A stretch of DNA of 64,000 bases. Source: Daphnia pulex. Taxonomy: Eukaryota > Arthropoda > Branchiopoda > Diplostraca > Daphniidae. A program made the translations under genes and the position numbers. A model generated the notes under the pieces. It saw only the letters and a program-made list of their open reading frames with translations. It ran no database searches and had not been told where the DNA came from. The stretch covers positions 8,184,001-8,248,000 of the forward strand of contig NC_060025.1 of the NCBI RefSeq assembly GCF_021134715.1. Direction: 5' to 3'. Every line of letters starts with the position of its first letter. Position 1 is the first letter of the stretch. This document shows, one piece after another, positions 9,428 through 53,800 of this stretch.

Positions 9428-9499
9428 GGCTCGATGGTCTAGGGGTATGATTCTCGCTTAGGGTGCGAGAGGTCCCGGGTTCAAATCCCGGTCGAGCCC
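9428..9499 (+). tRNA. tRNA-Pro (anticodon AGG)
   Basis: A 72-nt cloverleaf. GGCTCGA pairs with TCGAGCC, and the anticodon stem CTCGC/GCGAG encloses loop TTAGGGT. The T arm is CCCGGGTTCAAATCCCGG. First of a close pair. Confidence 0.93.
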
Positions 9500-9585: not shown

Positions 9586-9657
9586 GGCTCGTTGGTCTAG
9601 GGGTATGATTCTCGCTTTGGGTGCGAGAGGTCCCGGGTTCAAATCCCGGACGAGCCC
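9586..9657 (+). tRNA. tRNA-Pro (anticodon TGG)
   Basis: Nearly the same body as the tRNA-Pro 86 bp upstream, but the loop is TTTGGGT, giving anticodon TGG. The acceptor pair is GGCTCGT/ACGAGCC, so the acceptor arm changed with compensation. The flanks differ, so this is an old tandem duplication with anticodon change rather than a recent copy. Confidence 0.93.
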
Positions 9658-10187: not shown

Positions 10188-11806
10188 TCACTCGAACTCG
10201 CGAGGTCGTTTCACGAACAAGGCGAGACCGAAACTTAATTCGTCGGTAGCCGGACGTCTTCGAGATTGGTCAAAGAATCCCGAGTCCTGAGATCCTCTTC
10301 CGGTTTCGGTAGGAGTCGACGAAGAAATCTGGTGACCATAAAGAGATCCGGTGAATGAGAGAATCGACGTGGAGAGGTTTAAATCATTTTCGTATGAGAC
10401 ATTGGCGGACACTTGAGAATCATCAAAAACAAAAGCCTGCGGCTCGGTGGGCTCGCAGTCTTCTTGGCACTGGTCGGTTGAGCGGGATTGAGGCACATTA
10501 TGAGCTGGATCGATAAACGAATTTTGTTCGGCTATAAAAAGAACACAATTGGTTAATTTCAAGAAAATGATTCAATCCCAGGATCGATTACGACATACCA
10601 GGAGATACAACAGGTGCGGTAGGAAGGCGGTGCATGGAGAGTCTAACGTGGCGATGGGCATAAGATTCACCTCCGCTGGAACGTCTTCTCCTGGAGTCGG
10701 TCGGGAGTGTAGGATCACTCCTACTTGCGGTCAGAACGGCATGAGATTGAGGGTGGTGCGTGAGCAAATCCAGCGATTGGCTCCTGATTAGAATAGTATT
10801 CATTCGTGGTGCGCAATTCGATTCAGGTACGTCCACGTGAAGATCCAGGACGGAATTCGGTTCCCATAGGGAAGGAATAGTTTCAGTCGATCCATTTCCA
10901 TCTTCGATTGGCGGTTCAGCTCCTGGCAGATTGGCGTTATCTTCGTCCATATCAGGAGATTCTACCTTGGGATGACGGTGATAATAATTGATGGGTGTGG
11001 CTTGATTGAGAACGTCCTGTTGGACAATCACTCGAGTGTAGACGGGCTCAGATGCCACGACGCAGTTGGCTGGTTCTTCCGGATCTTCGTAAGGAGGTGG
11101 AAGGCGGTCGACAAGATTGCGACTTTCATCCTTTGAATCGTCAACAGCCGGTCGTGTCGTTTCAACTTTGCGATCTGATTATGTAATAAAAATAATGATT
11201 AAAACATCTTTATTAAAAATGAAATAATTTGAGTTGACATACGTTTAAAGTAAACAAAAAAACTGCCGGCGGCAAGTGTGGCCAGGATTGCGCAGATAAT
11301 AATCGACGTCACTGCAGAACCAATCGTGTTAACGTCACTCAAATAATCTGCTGGCGGTTCACTTTGGTTCGGATAACATTTCATTGAATGACGTTGACCC
11401 GTCAAATCTTCTGACTGATATCTGCATAAAATAAATTTTTAAAATTAGTTGATTGATTTAAAATAAAAAGAAGTTTTTTAATTAACTTACCCAGGAAGAC
11501 ACACGCCACAATCGTCTGCTGTTCTAGCACATCCGATCCGGCCGTTAACTGTAACCGGAGAACGGCGATAAAACACTTGCTCACATGGAAGGCAAGTCTC
11601 ACACATGGAAAATAAACAGTAATTTCCAACTGTGCAGTCAGCATCTCGTTTACACTAAATTTAAAAAGAATTGTTAAAAATCGACAGGTCTGGACTGGTT
11701 TTTTTAAAATCTAATAAAATACCTCCGTAGCGGGGATGTTCATGGAACTGACGGCCGATGTCAACAAAAGAAACAGGGCCATCATCCTGCAGAGTCGGAT
11801 GAACAT
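10188..11806 (-). CDS. Receptor A: single-pass receptor with small Cys-rich ectodomain (TNFR/Grindelwald-like?)
   Basis: Coding exons in transcript order: 11723-11806, 11491-11654, 11243-11421, 10599-11174 and 10188-10531 (448 aa). The signal peptide (MMALFLLLTSAVSS) is followed by a Cys-rich module of ten Cys (RDADCTVGNYC, CETCLPC, DDCGVCLPGYQ). A transmembrane helix (SIIICAILATLAAGSFFVYF) ends in basic residues. The long tail has a PPxY motif (LPPPYEDP), NGSTETIPSLWEP, RSQSLDLL (14-3-3-like), RRRRSSGGESYAHRHVRLS and a terminal GSQDSGFFDQSRRR. A splice acceptor 5' of the ATG (near 11829) and a donor at about 12258-12263 suggest a noncoding first exon. Exon sizes and phases mirror the two plus-strand paralogues. 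The small CxxC-rich ectodomain recalls insect TNF receptors, but I cannot confirm that family. Confidence 0.82.
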
Positions 11807-12128
11807 GTTGGAATGAGTTGACCTTGTCTGGAACAAAAGAGAGCAAAAATACTTTTAAGAATTTGGATTTTTAAAAACTGCTTTTAAAAAATGAAAAGGG
11901 AAACTTTTATTTTTCCTGAGAAGGTGATTGGCCCTGCTCTGACCTCAAATCAGGTAGTACAAAAACAAGTGAGTCATGGTTGAGAAATGTGAGGACAGGT
12001 TTCTACCGTCAAGATCAATTGACCATGAGCCTCCGGAGACATTCCATTCAGGTGACGTTTTTACCGAGTCATTCACATTTCTTAACAGATTTTTACAATT
12101 TTCTAATAAAAGCGAATTTTGTCTTTAC

Positions 12129-12158
12129 TGACGTCAATTGCAAATTCATTTGACGTCA
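12129..12158. promoter_or_regulatory. Paired TGACGTCA (CRE/ATF-type) sites
   Basis: Perfect palindromes TGACGTCA at 12129-12136 and 12151-12158, 22 bp apart (about two helical turns), lie 323-352 bp upstream of the Receptor A ATG and inside its presumed first-intron/promoter region. Such sites bind bZIP proteins of the CREB/ATF/XBP1 type. Function is inferred from sequence only. Confidence 0.5.
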
Positions 12159-12263
12159 ATCTCCAATAAGTTTCTTATCTCAACAATTTCAGTGGGCTAA
12201 TAGAAATGTCGTTATCACAGCCAACGACATTCCAACGCTGACAGTTTTTTTAAAAAGGCTTAC

Positions 12264-14296
12264 CGATGATGATGCAATATTTGCCGTTGTGTTATTAAAT
12301 CCTAGTGAAAATTTGCGAAAATAACTCTGGTGAAGCGATATAGCGAAGACACTTGTGAACGGCAACAGGTTGCTAGGAGAACTGACAAAATCAATCGTGT
12401 GGTAGTCTTGAGATATTCTTCAAAAAATATAAAACGGGCAAGTCCAGACACGTTAGGTTTGTCTTGTAGACCCTCTCTCTCTTCTATTGCCCTCCTTGAT
12501 TTTATGCCCCGCCCTTTCCACCCCCCCAACTCCCCATATGCACATATCAAAACGGCGCCTCTTTTTCCGAACTTGACCCACTTGTTGTTGTGCAATAACA
12601 TTCCCTTGAAAAGATATATTTAGGGGATATCCTGGACCACTAAACAACACCTGGAAGATACATACATACACACATACATACATACATACATACATACATA
12701 CATACATACAGGGGCAGGTAAAATCTCAGGTAGAAGTGAGTCAGTTGGAAGAAGAATTTCTACGGAAAGGTACAAGTGAGTCATGTTTATTTTGTTGGAA
12801 AAATAGAAAAACTTTTGTGTTTAATCCTCTTAAAAGCTAGCTCAATTCCATGGAACAAATGATTGTAAATTGATTGAGCGAGAGCCATCATGATCTTCTT
12901 TGTGAAATCAAGCGGAAAAAAAGAGAACCCGCTTTTATTTTTACATACGGGAAACGGGAAATTATTTTATCCGCATCCGTAAAGAAAACATGATTACCTT
13001 TTTTAAACAAAGGGGATGGTTGACGTAGGAGATTACCTCTGATTATCAAAATTAAAAAATAAGAAAAAAGTAGAAAAACCGAAAGTTTTCAGACGAGTCC
13101 GGACTTGTCCGAAAAAGCCTAGAGCGTCACGACGGGGTTCATTTGGGTCGGCGCACGGGGCCAAGTGAAAAACTTAACTTATATCCGACGGCCTTAACTA
13201 ATTGGTCTGGGTGGGTTAGGTTTTTTAACGCATGAACCCTTAACCCTCGATTGTTTTTCTTTTAAACAAGTTGTTGCATGTATACGGAAATCTGACGCTT
13301 TTCCTAGCTAGTCAATTGAAACTGAAATATTAGATGGCGCAAATGACACAAAAATTAAGAAAGACAATAAGAGAGAGAGTATAATGTTGGCAATAATTGC
13401 GTCATCATCTTTGCTGTCTATAAATGGACTGTGGTGTCTTTTTACGTCTTTTATTTGTTTGGGCTGTCACGAGCTGTCAAGGCCAAACTACCAGAGATAA
13501 GCACATTAAATTTAAATATATTAAAATAATTATTCAAAGATAGTTCACAGTGATAAGTTCACCTAGTGCATCCTGATAACATTTGCATGGGGTCCAAATT
13601 GATATCACCTATCTCATGAATAAAATAATCAAATGACTAATATAATCACGATGACTAATAATTTAAAATAGCTTTATAATGAATCAAATCAAAATATTCA
13701 GAATTAAAAGGACCTTGAATAATGATTAGTATAAATCCTGCTTCTATTTCTGACCCAATTGTTGAAAATTAATCGTCATGGATGAGCATAAATAGGTCAC
13801 AATATCTGGATAGTAACAAGCTCTTCATTGTGTTGTCAACAAAATTAGTTTGCGCCTGTCACTGACGTGTACGACGTGGACATAAAAAAAAAAGGCGAAA
13901 GTCAATGACCCACGGGTCATTTCGTCAAGCCAAAACAATTGCTGATGAAATACCAAAGAAGAAAGTTAGTTCCCGTTATCTTAAGGGGCGAACCAATAAA
14001 TCGTCCATTTGCCGCTTGGTGGACCACAGTCTATCACGAACCTTGTCAGCGAGTGGACGTGCTCTTGAGGCCTCCAGTTCTTAAAATTAAAAAAAGTTAA
14101 AATTATCTTTTATTGACAGTGAATTTTCATACCATTCCAAAGCATCGGCTTTATTTTCTATTCCACAAAGTGATTTAAATGAACTCAAGAGGTCAGCATC
14201 GCGCCTTAATTTACCGGCACGCTTCTTCTTCCTGATTGCGTCATCCTTAACATCTATTGCATCACCGTAACACAAGACATTTTCTATTTTTTATAG
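12264..14296. other. Divergent intergenic region between receptors A and B
   Basis: About 2 kb separating head-to-head receptor genes, so it should hold both promoters. The only clear structure is a (CATA)n microsatellite near 12660. A 62-aa minus-strand frame at 14087-14275 is charged but unsupported. Confidence 0.5.
12658..12711. repeat. (CATA)n microsatellite
   Basis: About 13 tetranucleotide units, interrupted once by CACA. Confidence 0.95.
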
Positions 14297-14338
14297 CCTC
14301 AGGTACCGCTAATCGTGAATTCCAAACGCCATCAAAAA

Positions 14339-15981
14339 ATGGTGTTCCAGCGTGCCTTCATCCTGCTTTTCTTCGTGTCCTTTTCCTATTCTGCGGAGAT
14401 CCTACTTGAGGTGAGTTTGAAAGAATGTCCGAGAGACTTTGTGTTATCTATTATCAATAATATAATCATGAGTTTATTTTTTCTCTTCGATAGTGTGATA
14501 AAGATATCGATTGCGGGGATGGTTACTTTTGTTTCCAATCCTATTGCGAACGGTGTATTCCGTGCGATGTTTTATTCCACCGCCAGCCGGCACAATCGTC
14601 GACCGGTCAACCTATTTGTGCCAAATATAAAGATGATTGCGGAATTTGCCTACCTGGGTAAGTTAACTTATTATTATTTCAAGTTAATTTTCGTTTTTAG
14701 TCTAATATCAATTTACCATTTTACAGGTATCAAGCCAACGATTTGACCGACCAACGACGTTCCATGGAATGTTTTCCATTGAACGAAACTGTTTCGACTC
14801 CCGATTTCTCGTGGACGGGAATCGTGTGGTTAGGATGTGTTCTCTTCTTGACGATAGCCTGTATCGCCTTTTTCCTTCATTGTAAGTTGATTTTATAGTA
14901 ATTAAGTTAATAATGCTTTTATTTTAAATTCTGGTTTCTTTTTTAGGTCGTCACATTCAACCGGTTTCGAGCAATAAGGAAGAAGAAGATTTAGCCGAAT
15001 ACGGAAGACGTCCATCCGCACCACCTGCATACACGATGGAAGATCCACTGGGCAGGTACCAAGTCGTTCCTCTGATCGTACATGATGAAACGGATCACGC
15101 CATTCTCGGATCGGTGCGGACTTCGGACCCCATGGTCATTGTCGAAGTGGCCGAACATCTCAGCCGGGCCGTTCCTATCAACTACGACGACCATTTTGAT
15201 GGCCGTCGCCAGTCCCGACACGAATCTGATTCAGAAGCCGATGAACAACAGGTGGTTCCTTTCATTGACATTCAAGATGTGGATTCCAACGGCAACGGAT
15301 CGACTGAAACGATCCCTTCGACGTGGGAGCCAACGCCATCAGCGTCCAGAATGTCCATGAATGTTGTCCTTGTTAGGAGCCAATCAGAGGAAATGTTGCG
15401 CCGGACGTCATCCACCAGCCAACTGGTTCGATTGGCCAGCGATCCTGAGATCCTGTCGTCTAGGAGAGCGTCTGTTGGCGGCGAAAGTTACAGCCACCGT
15501 CACGTCCGCCTTTCGCAGTATCGATCAAATTCCCAAATAATCGATCGACCAGGTAAAAAACGTGATAAAATTGACAAATTAAAATTTCATTGTGATAACA
15601 GTCACGATTGTTTACCTTACAGAATCGGTCGAGTCGTCTGATGAACTAGAATCTAATAAATTGGAAGGCGATCTAATTCGTGACTCGTGTTTGACCGAGC
15701 CCTGTGAAGATGGCCGGGAGCCAGACGCACCCGAGTCTTTCCTAATGGCCGACGCTGAGGACTCTTCACCTGCCATTCGGATTATCCAAAATGGCACAGT
15801 CTCGACCCATTATCTTGTGGCCTTTTCGAGTCAACCTCCTGATGGTCAAGGGTCGCAAGACTCTGGGTTCCAAGACCAATTTCGGAGACGTTCCAGAACA
15901 AATGACGATTTGTTAGATATGAATCAATCTTCTGCTATCAGTGCCAAAAGACGACGCAGGAACTGCTCAGAGAATGAGTGA
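14339..15981 (+). CDS. Receptor B: paralogue of receptor A
   Basis: Exons 14339-14410, 14494-14657, 14727-14881, 14947-15552 and 15623-15981 encode 451 aa with an acceptor just 5' (14295-14296), so a noncoding exon is likely. Residues 1-20 are a signal peptide. The Cys-rich module (about 25-95) has CDKDIDC, CERCIPC, DDCGICLPGYQ. The transmembrane helix is at about 110-130, and a PPxY motif lies at about 156-159 (SAPPAYTMED). Tail blocks shared with receptor A are NGSTETIPSTWEP, VLVRSQSEEML, SRRASVGGESYSHRHVRLS and GSQDSGFQDQFRRR. The tail is better conserved than the ectodomain, suggesting a common signalling partner with different ligands. The second coding exon is 164 nt in both genes. I do not recognise an exact orthologue. 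Confidence 0.84.
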
Positions 15982-16955
15982 ATTATCGCTTTGTGTAACG
16001 TTGTCCAATCTTGCCATATCATTCGACTCGTATCATCTATTCTTGACTTGATGACTTTATTTTATCTTTATTATTTTTTTTCATTCATGCATTCAATAAG
16101 GTATTTTGGAGCTTACAGATTCAATACAATCGTTTCAATTTGAATCTCTTTTTAAAATAGAGATGGAAACCGCAAATGATTTTAATAATTTTTATCGCCA
16201 TCACAAGTGTATAAATAATCCAAAAGTTAATAATTCTGTGTTGATTCAAATTTGGAATATGGAGAATATGATGAAAAATATTTGTTTCCGGAATATCTTT
16301 TTATCTTTAAAGTTAACACTATTCGATTTAAAGTAAGTCGTAATTTTTTAGACTACTGTGAAGCCGCAATATTTTATCTTCCTGTCTTACGTACTTATCA
16401 TTCCATCATGCATTTGACTATTAGTCTGATAGTCTCACACCTGAAGTAAACATTTATCAGTCAGAGGATCGAACGACATCCGGTGATGAAATAACTTGGC
16501 GTGATGTTTCGTGAGACTTTCACTTTCGTATACGAAAGAGAGGAAACAAGAAAGAAGGAAAAAATAAAGCCCTTTTGTGTGAAGCTTCTGTAATCTTTGG
16601 TCTTTTTTCACCGGGTGGCCGGCGGTGGCGTGATGTTTCGAAGACGTTCCCATTGGTCCGCGTTTAACATACAAGCGAAAGGACAGGGAGTGGGGGTTTA
16701 GAATAGAAACAAAATAATTACACGACATTTTACATGTAGATTTTCTAATTTTCACTGAACTTGAATGCTCGTTTTTCTGGTCATAAATGGGCCCAACCCA
16801 CAATTTTTGTTTAAATTCTGTCTTTTCCCTAGAAGAACATTTTATTTTTTGAGTATAAAATAATCAAAATTAAACAAGATATGGATACGAAATATGATTG
16901 ACACAAAAGATCAAGTTTGATTCGACAATTTTCAAGAAAACCAAAGAAAAAAAAT
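15982..16955. other. Intergenic between receptor B and tRNA-Ala
   Basis: AT-rich 3' flank of receptor B, then a block holding two CGTGATGTTTCG motifs (about 16500 and 16630). No supported gene. Confidence 0.45.
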
Positions 16956-17027
16956 TGGAGTTGCGGAGGATTGAACTCCGGGCTTTTCGCATGCAAAGCG
17001 AACACTCTACCACTGAGTTACAACCCC
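16956..17027 (-). tRNA. tRNA-Ala (anticodon TGC)
   Basis: Reverse complement folds as a 72-nt cloverleaf. GGGGTTG pairs with CAACTCC, and the anticodon stem TTCGC/GCGAA encloses TTTGCAT. The D arm is CTCAGTGGTAGAG and the T arm holds GTTCAATCC. A T-run follows downstream on the minus strand. Confidence 0.93.
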
Positions 17028-17831
17028 GGTATTATAGGCTAATCAGGTATTTAATACATTCTATTTTGCATCTTTGGTAGGATATCACTTGATGGAATAT
17101 TGGACTTTTTCCTAATTAGATTAACCTTTCTTCATAAGAATAACGAATTTGCCACTGGAAATTGAATTGAACTTTGCACCCGAAAAAATTTGAACCAACA
17201 CAGAACACACGTGCACATTCAGTTCATATGAAATATGAAAAAAATTTAATCGTCCATGTAGCGAAGCTATATTCTAACTCTATAATTTCCTATCTTTATG
17301 AAAAAAATGCTCTCTTAGAAGAAGTTACACTCGGTCGGGAACTCGATAAATTTCCATAAGCCCCGCCACCCCGCCACCTGCCGCCACCCGCCATGCATTT
17401 ATCCGTGGTTCGTAAACAAAACTGGCAACGGCGAAATAGCTAACTAACTTCTCGAATTTTCCTTTTATTTTTTCCTTTCATTTTCCAGCTTATACAATGC
17501 TAGGCTATCAGGCTATCTCTATAACGTTTGTAGTGTGAGCAGAGTGTAAGAGAGAGATCCTGATTCCCTAGGTGCTGTGAGCTCTGAGCTGGCTCGCTTT
17601 CAGACTCGCTTTCGTTCTTTACTTACTTCGGTTCATTTTTAATGCGCTCTAGTACGAACAGTGCGTCCCATTTTTTTAAATTTTTCTTGCGCTTAAATCA
17701 AATAGACTATTATTTGATTGACAACATATTGCCCAGCTTTACAAGGCTTACTGCTATTAATCTTTTTAAACGTCTTTTAGCAGCAGATTTTACTCAGCGC
17801 ACGCAGACAGTCTTTCTGCCTTCTCAACAAA

Positions 17832-18981
17832 ATGATCGTCCAAATTTTCTATCTTGCACTGATCTTTCTGCTAAAGATGTCGAGTTCTTCGGTGATCCTT
17901 GTAGGAAAACTTACAATAAAATTATTAATCATAGATTTAAAATAATTCCATTCCGCTCGATTGATAGTGTAACAATGACTCGGATTGCGGAAATGAATAT
18001 TACTGCTTAAGCGGCTTTTGCGAAGAATGTTTTCCTTGCAGTGAAAAATTTAATCGGCAACCACCGTCAAACAACAACGAAACTATTTGCGTTAAAACTG
18101 AAGAACATTGCAGAAATCGAACTTGCCTTCCTGGGTAGGCTATCATCTTTATTATTTCATTCTTTGAATTCATTAATTAAACATTTCTGATCAGATACGA
18201 GGCTGACGAATTGGCGAATGGGCAAAATTTTAGTACCAAATGCTATCGAGCAGAAAAAGTCGTCTCGTCTGACCTACCTACCTGGGTCTTTCCTTCTGTG
18301 GCCATAGTTTTCATGTTCACTCTGGCTCTCTTGGCTTTCTTCTCTAAAAGTTGTCAATTTTCTATTTTACTTTATACCTTTAAACATTCTCATTAATGTC
18401 GCTATTCCATTGATAGACATCAGGCTGAAAATATCGCCACCTAGGCCTGCGAACGCGGGTGACATTGGAATGGATGACATTGAACGGTCGCAACCTTCTG
18501 CACCTCTTGCGGATTCTGCCGCAGAAGAGAACACAAATAACAATGATGAGACGGGGTTTCTAATACATTCCTGTTCGAATCCAGTCGTTCAAGTTGACCG
18601 ACTCTGTCGTGCCGTACCTAATATTGGCCCGGATCACGAATATCATCCGCCAGGAACTATCGCAGAAGATCAACCGCTTGTTCCAGAAAATACTTCCAGA
18701 GACAACGAGGATTCGACTGTCGACGATGCGACCAAAGATGCTGCACCGGAGATTAGTTCAGCAACGAATACACCAGCATTGGAAATGTCAACTATTATTC
18801 AGTCGATAGATTCTTCAGGTATATTAATTAATTTGAATATGTATACTGTATGATTATGCTGAAAGTATCGTGTATTTAATTATTTTTTTCATACCAAGAA
18901 GGTACATCACAAGGTACGGATCAAGATCAGTCCCAAAACTGCCTAGAGATAGGAGCGGCTTTGACAATAAAACGTCATTAA
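17832..18981 (+). CDS. Receptor C: shortened paralogue of receptors A and B
   Basis: Exons 17832-17900, 17968-18134, 18195-18349, 18417-18818 and 18899-18981 encode 291 aa. The signal peptide (VQIFYLALIFLLKMSSSS) leads to the same Cys module (DSDCGNEYYC, CEECFPC, CLPGYEADEL). A transmembrane helix follows (FPSVAIVFMFTLALLAFF). The third exon is 155 nt as in receptor B. The tail is much shorter and acidic; it lacks the PPxY, RSQS and HRHVRLS blocks, keeping only a weak terminal SQGTDQDQ echo. The donor after 18349 is a weak GTTGTC; another donor is possible. It may be a decoy-like or diverging copy. Confidence 0.72.
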
Positions 18982-22450: not shown

Positions 22451-24213
22451 ATGAAGGCTTTGGTGAGTACTAATATTAATTATGATAAAGGGGAATAACA
22501 TAAAATGATTATTATTTTATAGGCACTCGTTCCGCTTTTAGCGGCCGTCATTTCCGCAGCACCACAATATGGGCAACCCCCGCCAGAAATCCAGACTGTT
22601 CCTATTACCCAAGGACAGTGGGCCACTCTCAATCCTTACGGCGAATCTGCTACTTACGAAATTCAAAGGCAATGGGAGAAATTCTTTGAATATCTTCCGT
22701 GGTTGAAGGGACCACCTGGACCACCTGGACCTCCAGGCGATAGTTATGGAGGATCCTACGATGTAGCGCAACTCATTCCAGGCCCACCTGGACCAGCCGG
22801 AGCACCCGGCGCCACCGGAGAAAAAGGCGATGCTGGACCTCCGGGAACACCAGGTTACTCTGGTTTACCTGGGCTACAAGGGCCGCCCGGAAAAGATGGA
22901 TCACCTGGTTATCCTGGAGAAAAAGGATCACCAGGTTATAACGGAGCTCCAGGATCTCCTGGCAAGCCAGGATACAATGGTGAAAAGGGAACACCCGGCC
23001 TTCCAGGCAAAGATGGATATCCAGGTGGACCTGGCCTTCCTGGAAAAGATGGATATTCCGGAGCTCCTGGACCCAAAGGTCCAAAAGGTAATTGCATCGT
23101 TTTACTCTAAATAAAAATTCTAGAACTTAAAATTCAAATTCAAATTTCAAAAGGTGAACCTGGCCCTCCCGGATATACTATCCCATCCAAAATCCCTGGC
23201 CCTCCTGGTTTACCCGGATATCCTGGCAAGGACGGAGCACCAGGTTATACTGGCGGTCCTGGCCCTGTTGGGCCTCCAGGGCCAATTGGATTACAAGGAC
23301 CTCCCGGCAAACCTGGAACAAATGGATATCCTGGCGGACCTGGTCTTAAAGGAGACGCAGGACTTCCGGGTTACACTGGAGCTCCAGGAAAAGATGGATA
23401 TCCCGGTGCACCAAGCAAAATTCCCGGTCTGCCTGGGCCTCAAGGGCCTGTTGGAGCTCCTGGTTACAATGGCGCTCCTGGCAAGGATGGTCTCCCCGGT
23501 GGTCCTGGATATCCAGGAAAAGATGGAAAGCCAGGCCCTCCAGGATACACTGGTAACATTAAACGTCAAATAATTGAATAAAGTAACAAAGCATCAATTA
23601 ATTGCCTTTTTTTTGTCATGTTGTAGGTTTGCCTGGTAAACCAGGTAAGGATGGTTATCCCGGCCCGGTCGGAACTCCTGGTTATAACGGCGGTCCAGGC
23701 CCAATCGGTCCTCAAGGCAAAGAAGGATTTCCTGGTTACCCGGGTACACCGGGTAAACCTGGTTTACCTGGTCCATTAGGACCAATTGGACCTCAAGGAA
23801 AAACAGGAGCTCCAGGTTATCCAGGCTTCCCTGGACCTGTTGGTTCTCGTGGACTTTTGGGGCCTGTAGGGCCACAAGGAAAGCCAGGTAGTCCAGGTTA
23901 TCCGGGCCCTGCTGGTCCAACTGGGCCAGCTGGATCACCAGGAACATCATACGAAATCGCTTCAGCAGTCTACAATCCTCCAGCAGCGATCTACAATCCT
24001 CCGGAACAAATTTATATTCCCGCAGAACCGGTTTATCTGCCATCGGAACCAGTCTACCAAGCACCAGCGCCGATTTATTTGCCATCTTCTCCCATCTACA
24101 TTCCAGCCGCAGAGCCAGTCTATCAGCCGTTAGCCCCTCCCACGTTAGTGTCCCAACCTAGTTACAATTCGCCGCAGCCTACTTACAATCCGCCGCAACC
24201 TAGCTATGGTTAA
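22451..24213 (+). CDS. Secreted collagen-like protein with Tyr/Pro-rich C-terminal tail
   Basis: Coding exons 22451-22462, 22523-23087, 23154-23552 and 23627-24213 encode 520 aa. A signal peptide ([18 protein letters not shown]) precedes about 60 aa of non-collagen sequence with aromatic/charged residues ([15 protein letters not shown]). Three Gly-X-Y stretches follow, rich in GPPG, GKDGYPG and GEKG triplets. They are interrupted by imperfections such as [14 protein letters not shown] and YTIPSKIPG. There is no fibrillar C-propeptide and no type IV NC1. Instead, the last 90 aa repeat [12 protein letters not shown] and YQAPAP units resembling arthropod cuticle matrix proteins. Tyr in these repeats could be cross-linking sites. 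It is probably a cuticle or extracellular-matrix component. It converges on the minus-strand acidic repeat gene. Confidence 0.85.
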
Positions 24214-44398: not shown

Positions 44399-45304
44399 CT
44401 GGTGGTTTCATGTGCAAGATCACTTATCATGTCACTGAACTTTTTCCGTTTCAGTCTAATATGTATTTAAAGTATTGATCTCCACTTATGTCTATCTAAT
44501 GTTTAAGAGACGCTTTTGAGTGTATACTGATAATTGTTTATTCTTTTAGATCATAGACGTCAAGCACATTATGACACAAATTATAAACAAGGTGACTTAT
44601 TTTTATTTTTTTATTTACAGGTTCTAAACACCAGGGTTCTAAATTTGCATGGCAGACTTTATGAGAAGTCATGTCCTTTCAAGAAAGTCAACAAGGTCCC
44701 TTGTTTACTAACCCAATGGCTGCTACCCTTGAATCTCCTTTTTTACTTTCTTAAACAGGCCATCTTTATTTGAGGTATTGCTTATTCTGTTGCTACAATC
44801 TTATTGAATATTATTGTCATCCAAATTAAATGTTCGTTCTGCTTACAGGGTAATCATTCGCTACTTATCGTGGACTTCATCCATTGCTGGAAACCAACCT
44901 TGAGAGCATGCTGTCATTCAAGACTGATAAATTGTGTAGTTAGCTAAATTACAAGTGCATATCTGGGCTCCCTTCTTTTCTGTGGCCCCGTTTCCCTAAC
45001 TAACCACTAACCAACGCCCGCCGGTGGTCACTCACCCGCTGTGAAACCAGGAGGAGGGGAGGGCTCTGGTCGAACGGGGACTTGGAAGGCGCATGATCCG
45101 ATGAAAACTTTTGGAGGGTCATGAGTCTAACCCGGAAGCCTAGTATGACTACATCTCCCCGGAAAAACTTGCCTCGTACTTCTCTCTTCTTCTCGGTCCA
45201 GATACTATCTCTGGGGGCCGTAGACAAAACCTACAACAGCATGCGCGAGTTTAAACAATGCATCCACTACCCAATGAAACAAAAAGCCATGGTTAATTTT
45301 TTGT

Positions 45305-45348
45305 GGAAATCTCCGTCAGTAAAGTTACAAAGACTGACGCAGATTTCC
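45305..45348 (+). other. Short strong hairpin in the palindrome arm
   Basis: GGAAATCTCCGTCAGT and ACTGACGCAGATTTCC form a 16-bp stem with one mismatch around a 12-nt loop. It is too short for a typical animal pre-miRNA. It is repeated in the right arm (53427-53470). It lies in a GC-richer, conserved-looking block (44990-45430) whose role I cannot assign. Confidence 0.55.
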
Positions 45349-45870
45349 GAAAAACTAAACCATCGCTGTTTGTCTCATTGCCGCAGCGGTGGTGGCGGGT
45401 TGCGTTTAAACTCGTGCAGTAGTAAACCGTCTTGAACCGGACGCTCTGTTTATTGAAATTTTTGTATATTAAAAAAATAATAATAAATAACAGTTTAATG
45501 TATTAAATGTTTTATTTATTACAGACATCATATTGTTAGGGTTTAACATTGGTTTATGTGGTTTAAGGTATAAATTCGAGAGTAGGTGTATGTGAGGTTT
45601 GAAGAATTGGAAGGTTGAAGTTAGTGGGGCTTGGAGATTAATTGGTGTGGATACATGTTGGTAGGGTTATAGATTAGATTGGTAGGGTTACTGATTTTTT
45701 ATCCAAACTTGAAATATCCCCTCTCCAAATTCCTCCACTTTCCTTTCCCAATCCCAAAATCATGTTTATTATTTGTTTGACATAAACACCCCATATTTCT
45801 TTTTTGTTTCTTCTTAACATAATAACGCTAAACTACATTGACACAATGCCAATTTAATAAAATAATAATG

Positions 45871-50854: not shown

Positions 50855-53800
50855 TGGTGGAATAGCTATCGTCAGTTTTCACTAAAAAATTTCCATACAA
50901 CAGCTGCCGATACATGGTTAAAGAGATTTTAAAGTAACTGAAACTGACTGTTTTAACAGCTGACATCTATCGGAAAGCCATCTAGCGTTAGAAAATTGTC
51001 TGAGTAACACTACGTATGAAGTAGGGCCTGATTTCGGAATTATTACAGACGTCATGAATAAAGCATATCAATCTTTACCTTTTCTAAGAAACACGTTGAA
51101 ATGTTCATGATGACAAAACCGTAAAAATGGAATTCACAGCAACCAACAGCATTACTCCACATGTTGAGATAAATTTCCTGATGCTTAAGAAAGTGTCATG
51201 AAGTATTGCAGTAGCGTGGTGATAGGTGGTTCACTTCACATTCTTCATGTCACTGAAACTCTAAGTGGAAATGGGACACGGAAATTCTCTATGTTATTTA
51301 CAAATTTACACAAATTTACCTATAAGACATAAGACTATACCTATCTCTTAGTTGGGTTGCCTTCTGAACCAAAGTAAAAACAGCCATAACAACAAACATG
51401 CTGTTGCAGAGTACATCACCAAAATTGCGGGATTCAGAAAAAATCCTATGGTTCATAAGCAGGAATACCTATGTTACATGAAAATCTGAATTGAAATGAA
51501 CTGGTAGCAGTAATGGGGAAATACCTTATCCCAGCACATTTGTATTCCACTATATGTGCTCTTCAAACATGAGTTTTAGGCTTTTGACAGCATGAGGATC
51601 TAATGGATGGAAATTGACTGAGCACTAAGTCATTGTTGGAATGACTGACAGTAACACAGTATGCATCTAGAATTTGAAGAAATAAGTTGGTACAGTATAA
51701 AAATAAGAGAACTAAGTAAAGATAAACCTACATAAGATACGAAGTTAAATTTGGTATTTGAAATCACAGGAATAAGTATAAATTAGCAACTATTTGTTTC
51801 GCTCATTTCGCCCTCGTTTCACCATGAAAGAATAACATCGGCGACACTGGCGACATCTAGTATTGAGTTTTGAATCTTAAGTTAGTTGCACAGTCAGTCA
51901 CAGACACACATGACATGACATTACACGTCGTAACTTTCAACAAGTTGTTTTAACAACGGAGATCGGGTAACAAGTTAACTGTTTTTAAGTAATAATAGAT
52001 AAAACAATCTTTATTTAATAATTCGTTTCAATGTAGCTTGTGACAATAGAAATGAAATAGCCAAATGGTCTAATCCAATAATGCAAGCTCACAACCTATG
52101 TCTTCTGAAGAAAAATCATTTCTGTTGCAGGTTAGTTATTTTACCAAAAATATTTTGAATTACTGTGTTCTTTAAGACAATAATGTTCACATTAACTTTT
52201 CCCTTTCAAGTTGTAAATCTTCAAGATATTGATGCCTTCGCCAGATCCAATTATTTGTTGTTGATGAGAGAGAGAAATGAATTCATCATTTTGTGTGCAA
52301 AGTTTTAATTATTTTTATTTCTAATGTAAATTTTGCTTTAGATTTTGCATTTAGACCGAATGAGAACCATTTTGTTGCCCATCCGAGGATAAGGAAAAGG
52401 CCAACCCCACCAAAACGGTCAACAAGGCTCTTTGTTTGTTTACCCCTTGGCTGGTGAAAGATTGTTGTGCATCAAGTTAACCTGTGGCTGTTCCTTGTTG
52501 CTGGTGTCTTGTTACAGAAGTTGCAGGCAGTATTTGGTTCAATTTGCATTGTCTGTAGATTTTCAGCTAGTTTAAGTCTTAGCCTAACCTTCTTCTTTGT
52601 TCCAGTCTAATTCACACATGTTTTTTTTTTTCAGTCAGCATTTTGAATTTGACATTTACAATTTTCGTAATGGTAAGCTAATGATTTGTGTTAACTCTTG
52701 TAAATAACATAAAGTGACCTTTATTTGTCTTTTCATTGACAGCATTTCCATATTCCATTGATGCTGAATATTAATTCATTTCGGTTACAGGTTTCGCGTA
52801 GTTGCTGTCCGCTGTGGTACGTTGTTGCAGCCTATGCTGGTGATAGATCTTTCTGCATCAAATTCAATTGGCCGTTCCTTGGTGCTGGTGTCGTGTTAAA
52901 GTTGCATTATTATTTTATTAAATTGGCATTGTGTCAATGTAGTTTAGCGTTATTATGTTAAGAAGAAACAAAAAAGAAATATGGGGTGTTTATGTCAAAC
53001 AAATAATAAACATGATTTTGGGATTGGGAAAGGAAAGTGGAGGAATTTGGAGAGGGGATATTTCAAGTTTGGATAAAAAATCAGTAACCCTACCAATCTA
53101 ATCTATAACCCTACCAACATGTATCCACACCAATTAATCTCCAAGCCCCACTAACTTCAACCTTCCAATTCTTCAAACCTCACATACACCTACTCTCGAA
53201 TTTATACCTTAAACCACATAAACCAATGTTAAACCCTAACAATATGATGTCTGTAATAAATAAAACATTTAATACATTAAACTGTTATTTATTATTATTT
53301 TTTTAATATACAAAAATTTCAATAAACAGAGCGTCCGGTTCAAGACGGTTTACTACTGCACGAGTTTAAACGCAACCCGCCACCACCGCTGCGGCAATGA
53401 GACAAACAGCGATGGTTTAGTTTTTCGGAAATCTGCGTCAGTCTTTGTAACTTTACTGACGGAGATTTCCACAAAAAATTAACCATGGCTTTTTGTTTCA
53501 TTGGGTAGTGGATGCATTGTTTAAACTCGCGCATGCTGTTGTAGGTTTTGTCTACGGCCCCCAGAGATAGTATCTGGACCGAGAAGAAGAGAGAAGTACG
53601 AGGCAAGTTTTTCCGGGGAGATGTAGTCATACTAGGCTTCCGGGTTAGACTCATGACCCTCCAAAAGTTTTCATCGGATCATGCGCCTTCCAAGTCCCCG
53701 TTCGACCAGAGCCCTCCCCTCCTCCTGGTTTCACAGCGGGTGAGTGACCACCGGCGGGCGTTGGTTAGTGGTTAGTTAGGGAAACGGGGCCACAGAAAAG

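Follow-up and report, generated by a model that had tools for sequence, protein, structure and literature searches.

In Drosophila, two tumor necrosis factor (TNF) receptors (TNFRs) are known, and Grindelwald is described as having eight cysteines, with an X2 hairpin followed by a C2 module (C57-x3-C61-x11-C73-x3-C77) and with Phe46 packed between the two modules (PMC8024323). For Daphnia pulex, one survey counts a single cysteine-rich domain (CRD) protein/TNFR (PMC4979521), and another report describes a p75NTR with its TNFR repeats in one open frame, together with a second CRD fragment (PMC2772990). No mention of Eiger or Wengen appears in the accessible sections of a survey of arthropod immunity (PMC4833078). 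The window analyzed here, the whole stretch of 64,000 nucleotides (nt) of D. pulex contig NC_060025.1 at positions 8,184,001 to 8,248,000 (assembly GCF_021134715.1), codes between its positions 10188 and 18981 for three genes, A, B, and C, whose anatomy is that of cell-surface receptors and whose family numbers at least eight genes. No description of this receptor family was found in the open-access literature, subscription papers being outside the scope of the search.

The gene models, based on the reading frames of both strands and on tests of candidate splice sites, are predicted from the DNA sequence. Gene A (10188..11806, minus strand; 448 amino acids [aa]) has coding exons at 11806-11723, 11654-11491, 11421-11243, 11174-10599, and 10531-10188; gene B (14339..15981, plus strand; 451 aa) at 14339-14410, 14494-14657, 14727-14881, 14947-15552, and 15623-15981; and gene C (17832..18981, plus strand; 291 aa) at 17832-17900, 17968-18134, 18195-18349, 18417-18818, and 18899-18981. 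Each is thus a five-exon gene with no internal stop, all 12 introns are GT-AG and 60 to 83 nt long, and the phases are 0,2,1,1 in every gene. The exon lengths (A, 84/164/179/576/344 nt; B, 72/164/155/606/359 nt; C, 69/167/155/402/83 nt) bear out the common plan noted in a prior sequence-only reading of this DNA, with second exons of 164, 164, and 167 nt and a third exon of 155 nt in B and C. Identity to B over the alignment is 36% for A and 31% for C. Plain hydropathy at a threshold of 1.6, used in place of a dedicated signal-peptide or transmembrane (TM) predictor, finds a hydrophobic N terminus and one TM-strength segment in each protein, as that reading had proposed; this corresponds to a type I single-pass topology. 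The second exons (A, 11491..11654, minus; B, 14494..14657, plus; C, 17968..18134, plus) carry nine of the ten ectodomain cysteines, and the third exons (A, 11243..11421, minus; B, 14727..14881, plus; C, 18195..18349, plus) code for the tenth cysteine, a stalk, and the single TM segment, the last placed by hydropathy.

The family is larger than the three members first proposed. Exon-level searches of the genome (133,188,837 bases in 13 contigs) give at least eight genes, adding D1, D2, D3, gene E, and F to A, B, and C. With the ectodomain exon of B as the query, matches lie at C9:8086661, C9:8088366, C11:2829773, C7:4050813, and C12:6918455, with E values from 3.4e-14 to 0.033; two of the further members are on the window's own contig, about 100 kb from A, B, and C, and three are on contigs 11, 7, and 12. 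Gene A as the query recovers the same eight genes, and the contig-12 gene recovers seven of them (C is missing) plus a weak place on contig 10 (E value of 0.27), which was rejected as a ninth member on finding no ten-cysteine module in its reading frames. The likeness is not due to chance, given the E values of down to 3.4e-14 for the ectodomain exon of B and of 6.4e-7 and 1e-3 for a tail piece of gene E against A and B, respectively.

Gene E, on contig 7, codes for 400 aa and carries the tail of A and B. D1 (171 aa) and D2 (154 aa) have a TM segment and tails of roughly 20 to 40 residues, D3 (134 aa) has a weak terminal hydrophobic stretch, and F has 239 aa counted from exon 2 on, with a possible first exon visible but left out of the model. 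Intron phases, where known, are 0,2,1,1 in gene E, 0,2,1 in D1 and D2, 0,2 in D3, and 2,1 in F (from exon 2), and the N termini of gene E and of D1 to D3 fall below the hydropathy threshold. Downstream of D1 and D2, an open frame at L016:8109-8255 holds an exon-2-like fragment with parts missing and looks like a relic copy; close after gene E, from L018:5926 onwards, is another gene start, which looks like that of an arrestin-domain protein. Outside this genome, exon 2 of B against viral contigs and three exon-2 peptides against bacterial and archaeal genomes gave 5 and 74 pattern stretches, respectively, with no relatives by tblastn, and exon 2 of B has no match among phage records.

All eight ectodomains contain ten cysteines in the register 5,5,4-6,2-3,2,11-17,6,2-4,16-18, with an aromatic residue directly before the third cysteine in every one. 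The proposed ten-cysteine module ending in CLPGY has the right count and the wrong end: in A, B, and C, nine cysteines precede or lie within CLPG, and the tenth follows 17 to 18 residues further on, in exon 3.

A long cytoplasmic tail (262 to 322 residues) is common to A, B, and gene E. The tail of A (exons 4 and 5; 10188..11174, minus) carries PPPY, GSTETIPSLWEP, RSQS, GGESYAHRHVRLS, GSQDSGF, and SRRR ... KRPR; that of B (exons 4 and 5; 14947..15981, plus) carries PPAY, GSTETIPSTWEP, RSQS, GGESYSHRHVRLS, GSQDSGF, and FRRR ... KRRRR. Alignment upholds the long blocks reported for A and B (NGSTETIPS.WEP, RSQS, GGESY.HRHVRLS, and GSQDSGF), and across A, B, and gene E the identical positions in the tail include GSTETIPS.WEP, RSQS, HRHV.LS, GSQD, RRR, and a C-terminal KR.R, with 91 identical columns in the whole alignment. 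A PPxY motif lies 27, 27, and 30 residues past the best TM window in A (PPPY), B (PPAY), and gene E (PPSY); the chance of such a motif anywhere in the shuffled tail is 0.064, 0.024, and 0.042, values that must not be multiplied because the three tails are homologous. None of the five other members has PPxY, although F has PPPF, and in C the tail is shortened to fragments without PPxY, RSQS, or HRHV.LS. In whole-genome searches, a tail piece of gene E finds A (6.4e-7), B (1e-3), and two weak matches, on contigs 2 and 12 (E values of 0.75 and 2.98), and a tail piece of B matches only itself and A (4.1e-5).

Pfam was queried with whole A, B, and C and with the eight ectodomains. No family scores over its cut-off in the three whole proteins, in agreement with the view that the tail is not that of a named receptor, and on these profile searches it looks unnamed. 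Neither of two TRAF-type motifs ([PSAT]x[QE]E and PxExx[acidic/aromatic]) is common to the three long tails. RSQS and RRxS resemble sites for basophilic kinases and perhaps for 14-3-3 proteins.

Nei-Gojobori counts for the pairs A/B, A/E, and B/E show that these copies are old and under constraint rather than a recent local burst, since in the ectodomain the synonymous sites are saturated (proportion of synonymous differences [pS], 0.83 to 1.00) and the replacement sites are not (proportion of nonsynonymous differences [pN], 0.27 to 0.32). Over the whole tail, pS is 0.74 to 0.81 and pN is 0.45 to 0.51; in tail blocks chosen for identity the replacement differences are 0.17 to 0.28, a range biased by that choice. 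The suggested local duplication with one inversion tells part of the history: A is on the minus strand and its two neighbors are on the plus strand, A and B are old copies, and a third gene with this tail is on contig 7. In a tree of all eight genes, D1-D2 is the one supported pair (96/98), C-F is weak (65/80), and long branches are flagged.

A candidate relative of the ectodomain comes from Protein Data Bank (PDB) sequence searches, nine of which were made on this family with matches listed up to an E value of 10 (the single queries being A, B, C, D1, D2, and gene E). Human EDAR is the best match for three of six single ectodomains (D1, 0.003; D2, 0.024; gene E, 0.09) and the only one for gene E and D1. 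It is also the sole match of the eight-member profile (0.1) and of the C-terminal half of that profile (0.33). As a yardstick, the Wengen-like repeat of the same genome reaches TNFRs in the PDB only at E values of at least 0.29. The EDAR value of 0.003 comes from six mutually related single queries and is suggestive rather than conclusive. EDAR and the family have in common a cysteine-rich ectodomain and the stretch ECGPCLPGY, but Pfam finds no death domain in A, B, or C, and EDAR has several repeats compared with the one compact module here; the family presumably also resembles XEDAR and TROY.

The TNFRs recognized elsewhere in the genome allow a closer comparison. Pfam TNFR_c6 finds five exons, three over the cut-off, which fall in a p75NTR-like gene containing several repeats, in another gene that has pieces of repeats, and in a Wengen-like gene (C7:10182242) whose single repeat has a TM-like stretch nearby (C4:3100224, C9:8692912, and C7:10182242; L001-L005). 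The TNFR repeats of the p75NTR-like gene are in one open frame, as described for D. pulex p75NTR (PMC2772990). The Wengen-like and p75NTR-like (C4:3100224) receptors are cysteine rich with the C-x2-C-x2-C core found in the family, and the family's C-x2-C-x2-C ... C-x6-C spacing is near the C-x2-C-x2-C-x9-C-x7-C of TNFR repeats in this genome, but TNFR_c6 finds these receptors and does not find A to F. A version of the TNFR pattern loosened after the spacing had been viewed fits seven of the eight ectodomains; it is no evidence, because it was fitted to that spacing, and was discarded.

On these comparisons A, B, and C are tentatively regarded, with somewhat less than even confidence, as type I single-pass receptors having a compact, atypical TNFR-type cysteine-rich domain akin to the membrane-proximal part of EDAR, with tails in some members that would be clustered by ligand and bind WW domains and with other members acting as decoys. 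The TNFR half of the original TNFR/Grindelwald-like proposal is weakly to moderately supported by way of EDAR, to which the relation is weakly shown. Several results weigh against this assignment. The single ectodomains of A, B, and C have no PDB match up to an E value of 10, and up to the same value no ectodomain of the family has TNFR_c6 among its listed Pfam matches, although filters may drop weak matches. When the family profile is compared with three TNFR repeats from this genome, its score is reached by 43 of 150 cysteine-fixed shuffles and by 32 of 150 full shuffles. The TNFR signature, in what we take to be its PROSITE form, occurs in none of the eight members, as against three out of five TNFR pieces found elsewhere in the genome, and the tree gives no supported placement of A, B, D3, or gene E. 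In the structural comparison with TNFR CRDs envisaged in the sequence-only reading, the AlphaFold model of unspliced exon-2 peptides is of middling confidence (predicted local distance difference test, 71.8; predicted template modeling score, 0.43) and contains a hairpin, and of the 21 Foldseek matches up to an E value of 10 none reaches 0.001, the top one being Dickkopf 4 (Dkk4) at 1.6; eight are chains from TNFR or TNFR-complex entries, as judged by entry titles. Finally, the best Pfam family in the eight ectodomains is Dickkopf_N, listed for six of them with a best E value of 4.1e-4 (by E value only), the likeness lying in the N-terminal half and taken as below the cut-off.

This last result also underlies a different and rather unlikely view, that the module is a Dickkopf- or prokineticin-like disulfide domain rather than a TNFR domain and serves another class of ligand (Wnt-pathway or growth-factor-like, for example) with the same WW-binding tail. 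Whole A matches Dickkopf_N at 0.013 and whole B matches Prokineticin at 0.0016, but both fall below the Pfam cut-offs (for A, 16.2 bits versus 25). In the PDB search with the N-terminal half profile, Dkk4 comes second and third (0.37 and 1.2), after a leech peptide at 0.04; the N-half alignments, however, span only about the first three cysteines, a hairpin that fits the leech peptide better, and the C-terminal half profile leads to EDAR and not to Dickkopf. The Dickkopf N-terminal domain begins C-x5-C-x5-C as the family does, but its second half is not matched. Dickkopfs are secreted and contain a CC pair, which the family lacks. NCBIfam adds a best E value of 0.11, to a cysteine-rich repeat model in three of the eight.

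The tail raises an unlikely alternative of its own, in which the proteins are TM adaptors of the Commissureless/Shisa/PRRG type, bringing Nedd4-type ligases in cis through PPxY while the ectodomain binds cargo and no soluble ligand is involved. Commissureless and PRRG4, both with a single TM segment, bind Nedd4 through L/PPxY motifs, and the PPSYSQA context of gene E is like the LPSYEQA box given in that work (PMC5578492). A, B, and gene E have the single TM segment and the cytoplasmic PPxY soon after it, and in none of the window's three proteins does a signaling domain pass its Pfam cut-off; the likeness is one of working mode, not drawn from sequence comparison. However, their tails of 262 to 322 residues, with several additional conserved blocks, exceed those of the adaptors, and the absence of PPxY from five of the eight members is hard to fit with an adaptor role across the family.

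Comparison with Grindelwald was confined to the ectodomain. The family's C-x2-3-C-x2-C-x11-17-C-x6-C-x2-4-C spacing does not fit the Grindelwald C2 pattern (C-x3-C ... C-x3-C) and is nearer to TNFR repeats of what we take to be the A1-B2 kind. Membership in Grindelwald, as orthologues diverged beyond recognition, is highly improbable and was rejected: a single small cysteine-rich ectodomain with one TM segment is common to both, and the invariant aromatic residue may stand for Phe46, presumably also directly before a cysteine, but the family has ten cysteines rather than eight, its spacing is unlike C57-x3-C61-x11-C73-x3-C77, and no Grindelwald chain is among the matches of the nine PDB searches, the chain's presence in the database copy being unchecked.

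If the TNFR-type reading is followed, the receptors would be clustered by a ligand that is secreted or on a cell surface and most likely resembles TNF, and the clustered tails of A, B, and gene E would act as a scaffold. The PPxY motif could then recruit proteins with WW domains, for example ubiquitin ligases of the NEDD4 type, and these would set the surface level or the signal output. Conserved blocks rich in serine (RSQS and HRHV.LS, with RRxS in A and B) may be docking sites that depend on phosphorylation. The members whose tails are short or different (C, D1, D2, D3, and F) may compete for the ligand as decoys or modulators, much as TNFR decoys do. The genome has TNF-domain-like exons, two over the Pfam cut-off (E values of 0.0025 and 0.0042) and three weaker, with none at 0.001, so a TNF-like ligand may be available, though nothing ties it to the receptor genes.

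The broader proposition is that the family is an EDAR-like branch of TNF-type receptors retained in arthropods of this lineage and missed by domain scans, consisting of full-length signaling receptors with a WW-binding, death-domain-free tail and of short-tailed decoys, the tail module being known from no other receptor; this is doubtful but would have several consequences. Were all eight to be TNF-type receptors, the number of such receptors in this genome would be several times higher, a protostome would have an EDAR-like receptor, and a crustacean would have a small TNF-type receptor network. The conserved tail would represent a new way of coupling TNF-type receptors to the cell, and its blocks are short enough for direct peptide testing.

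Other features of the window include two tRNA-Pro genes (9428-9499 and 9586-9657, plus) adjoining the 3' end of A and a tRNA-Ala (TGC) gene (16956-17027, minus) between B and C. A Spaetzle-domain exon (140-730, plus; Pfam E value of 2.2e-24) lies about 10 kb from gene A, with no link to the receptor genes shown, and collagen-repeat exons are at 22523-24210 (plus; Pfam on 22523-23107 only). Two open frames of 112 residues (45097-45432, plus, and 53343-53678, minus) look identical over their first 110 residues, and this pair in opposite orientation is perhaps an inverted duplication, possibly of a mobile element.

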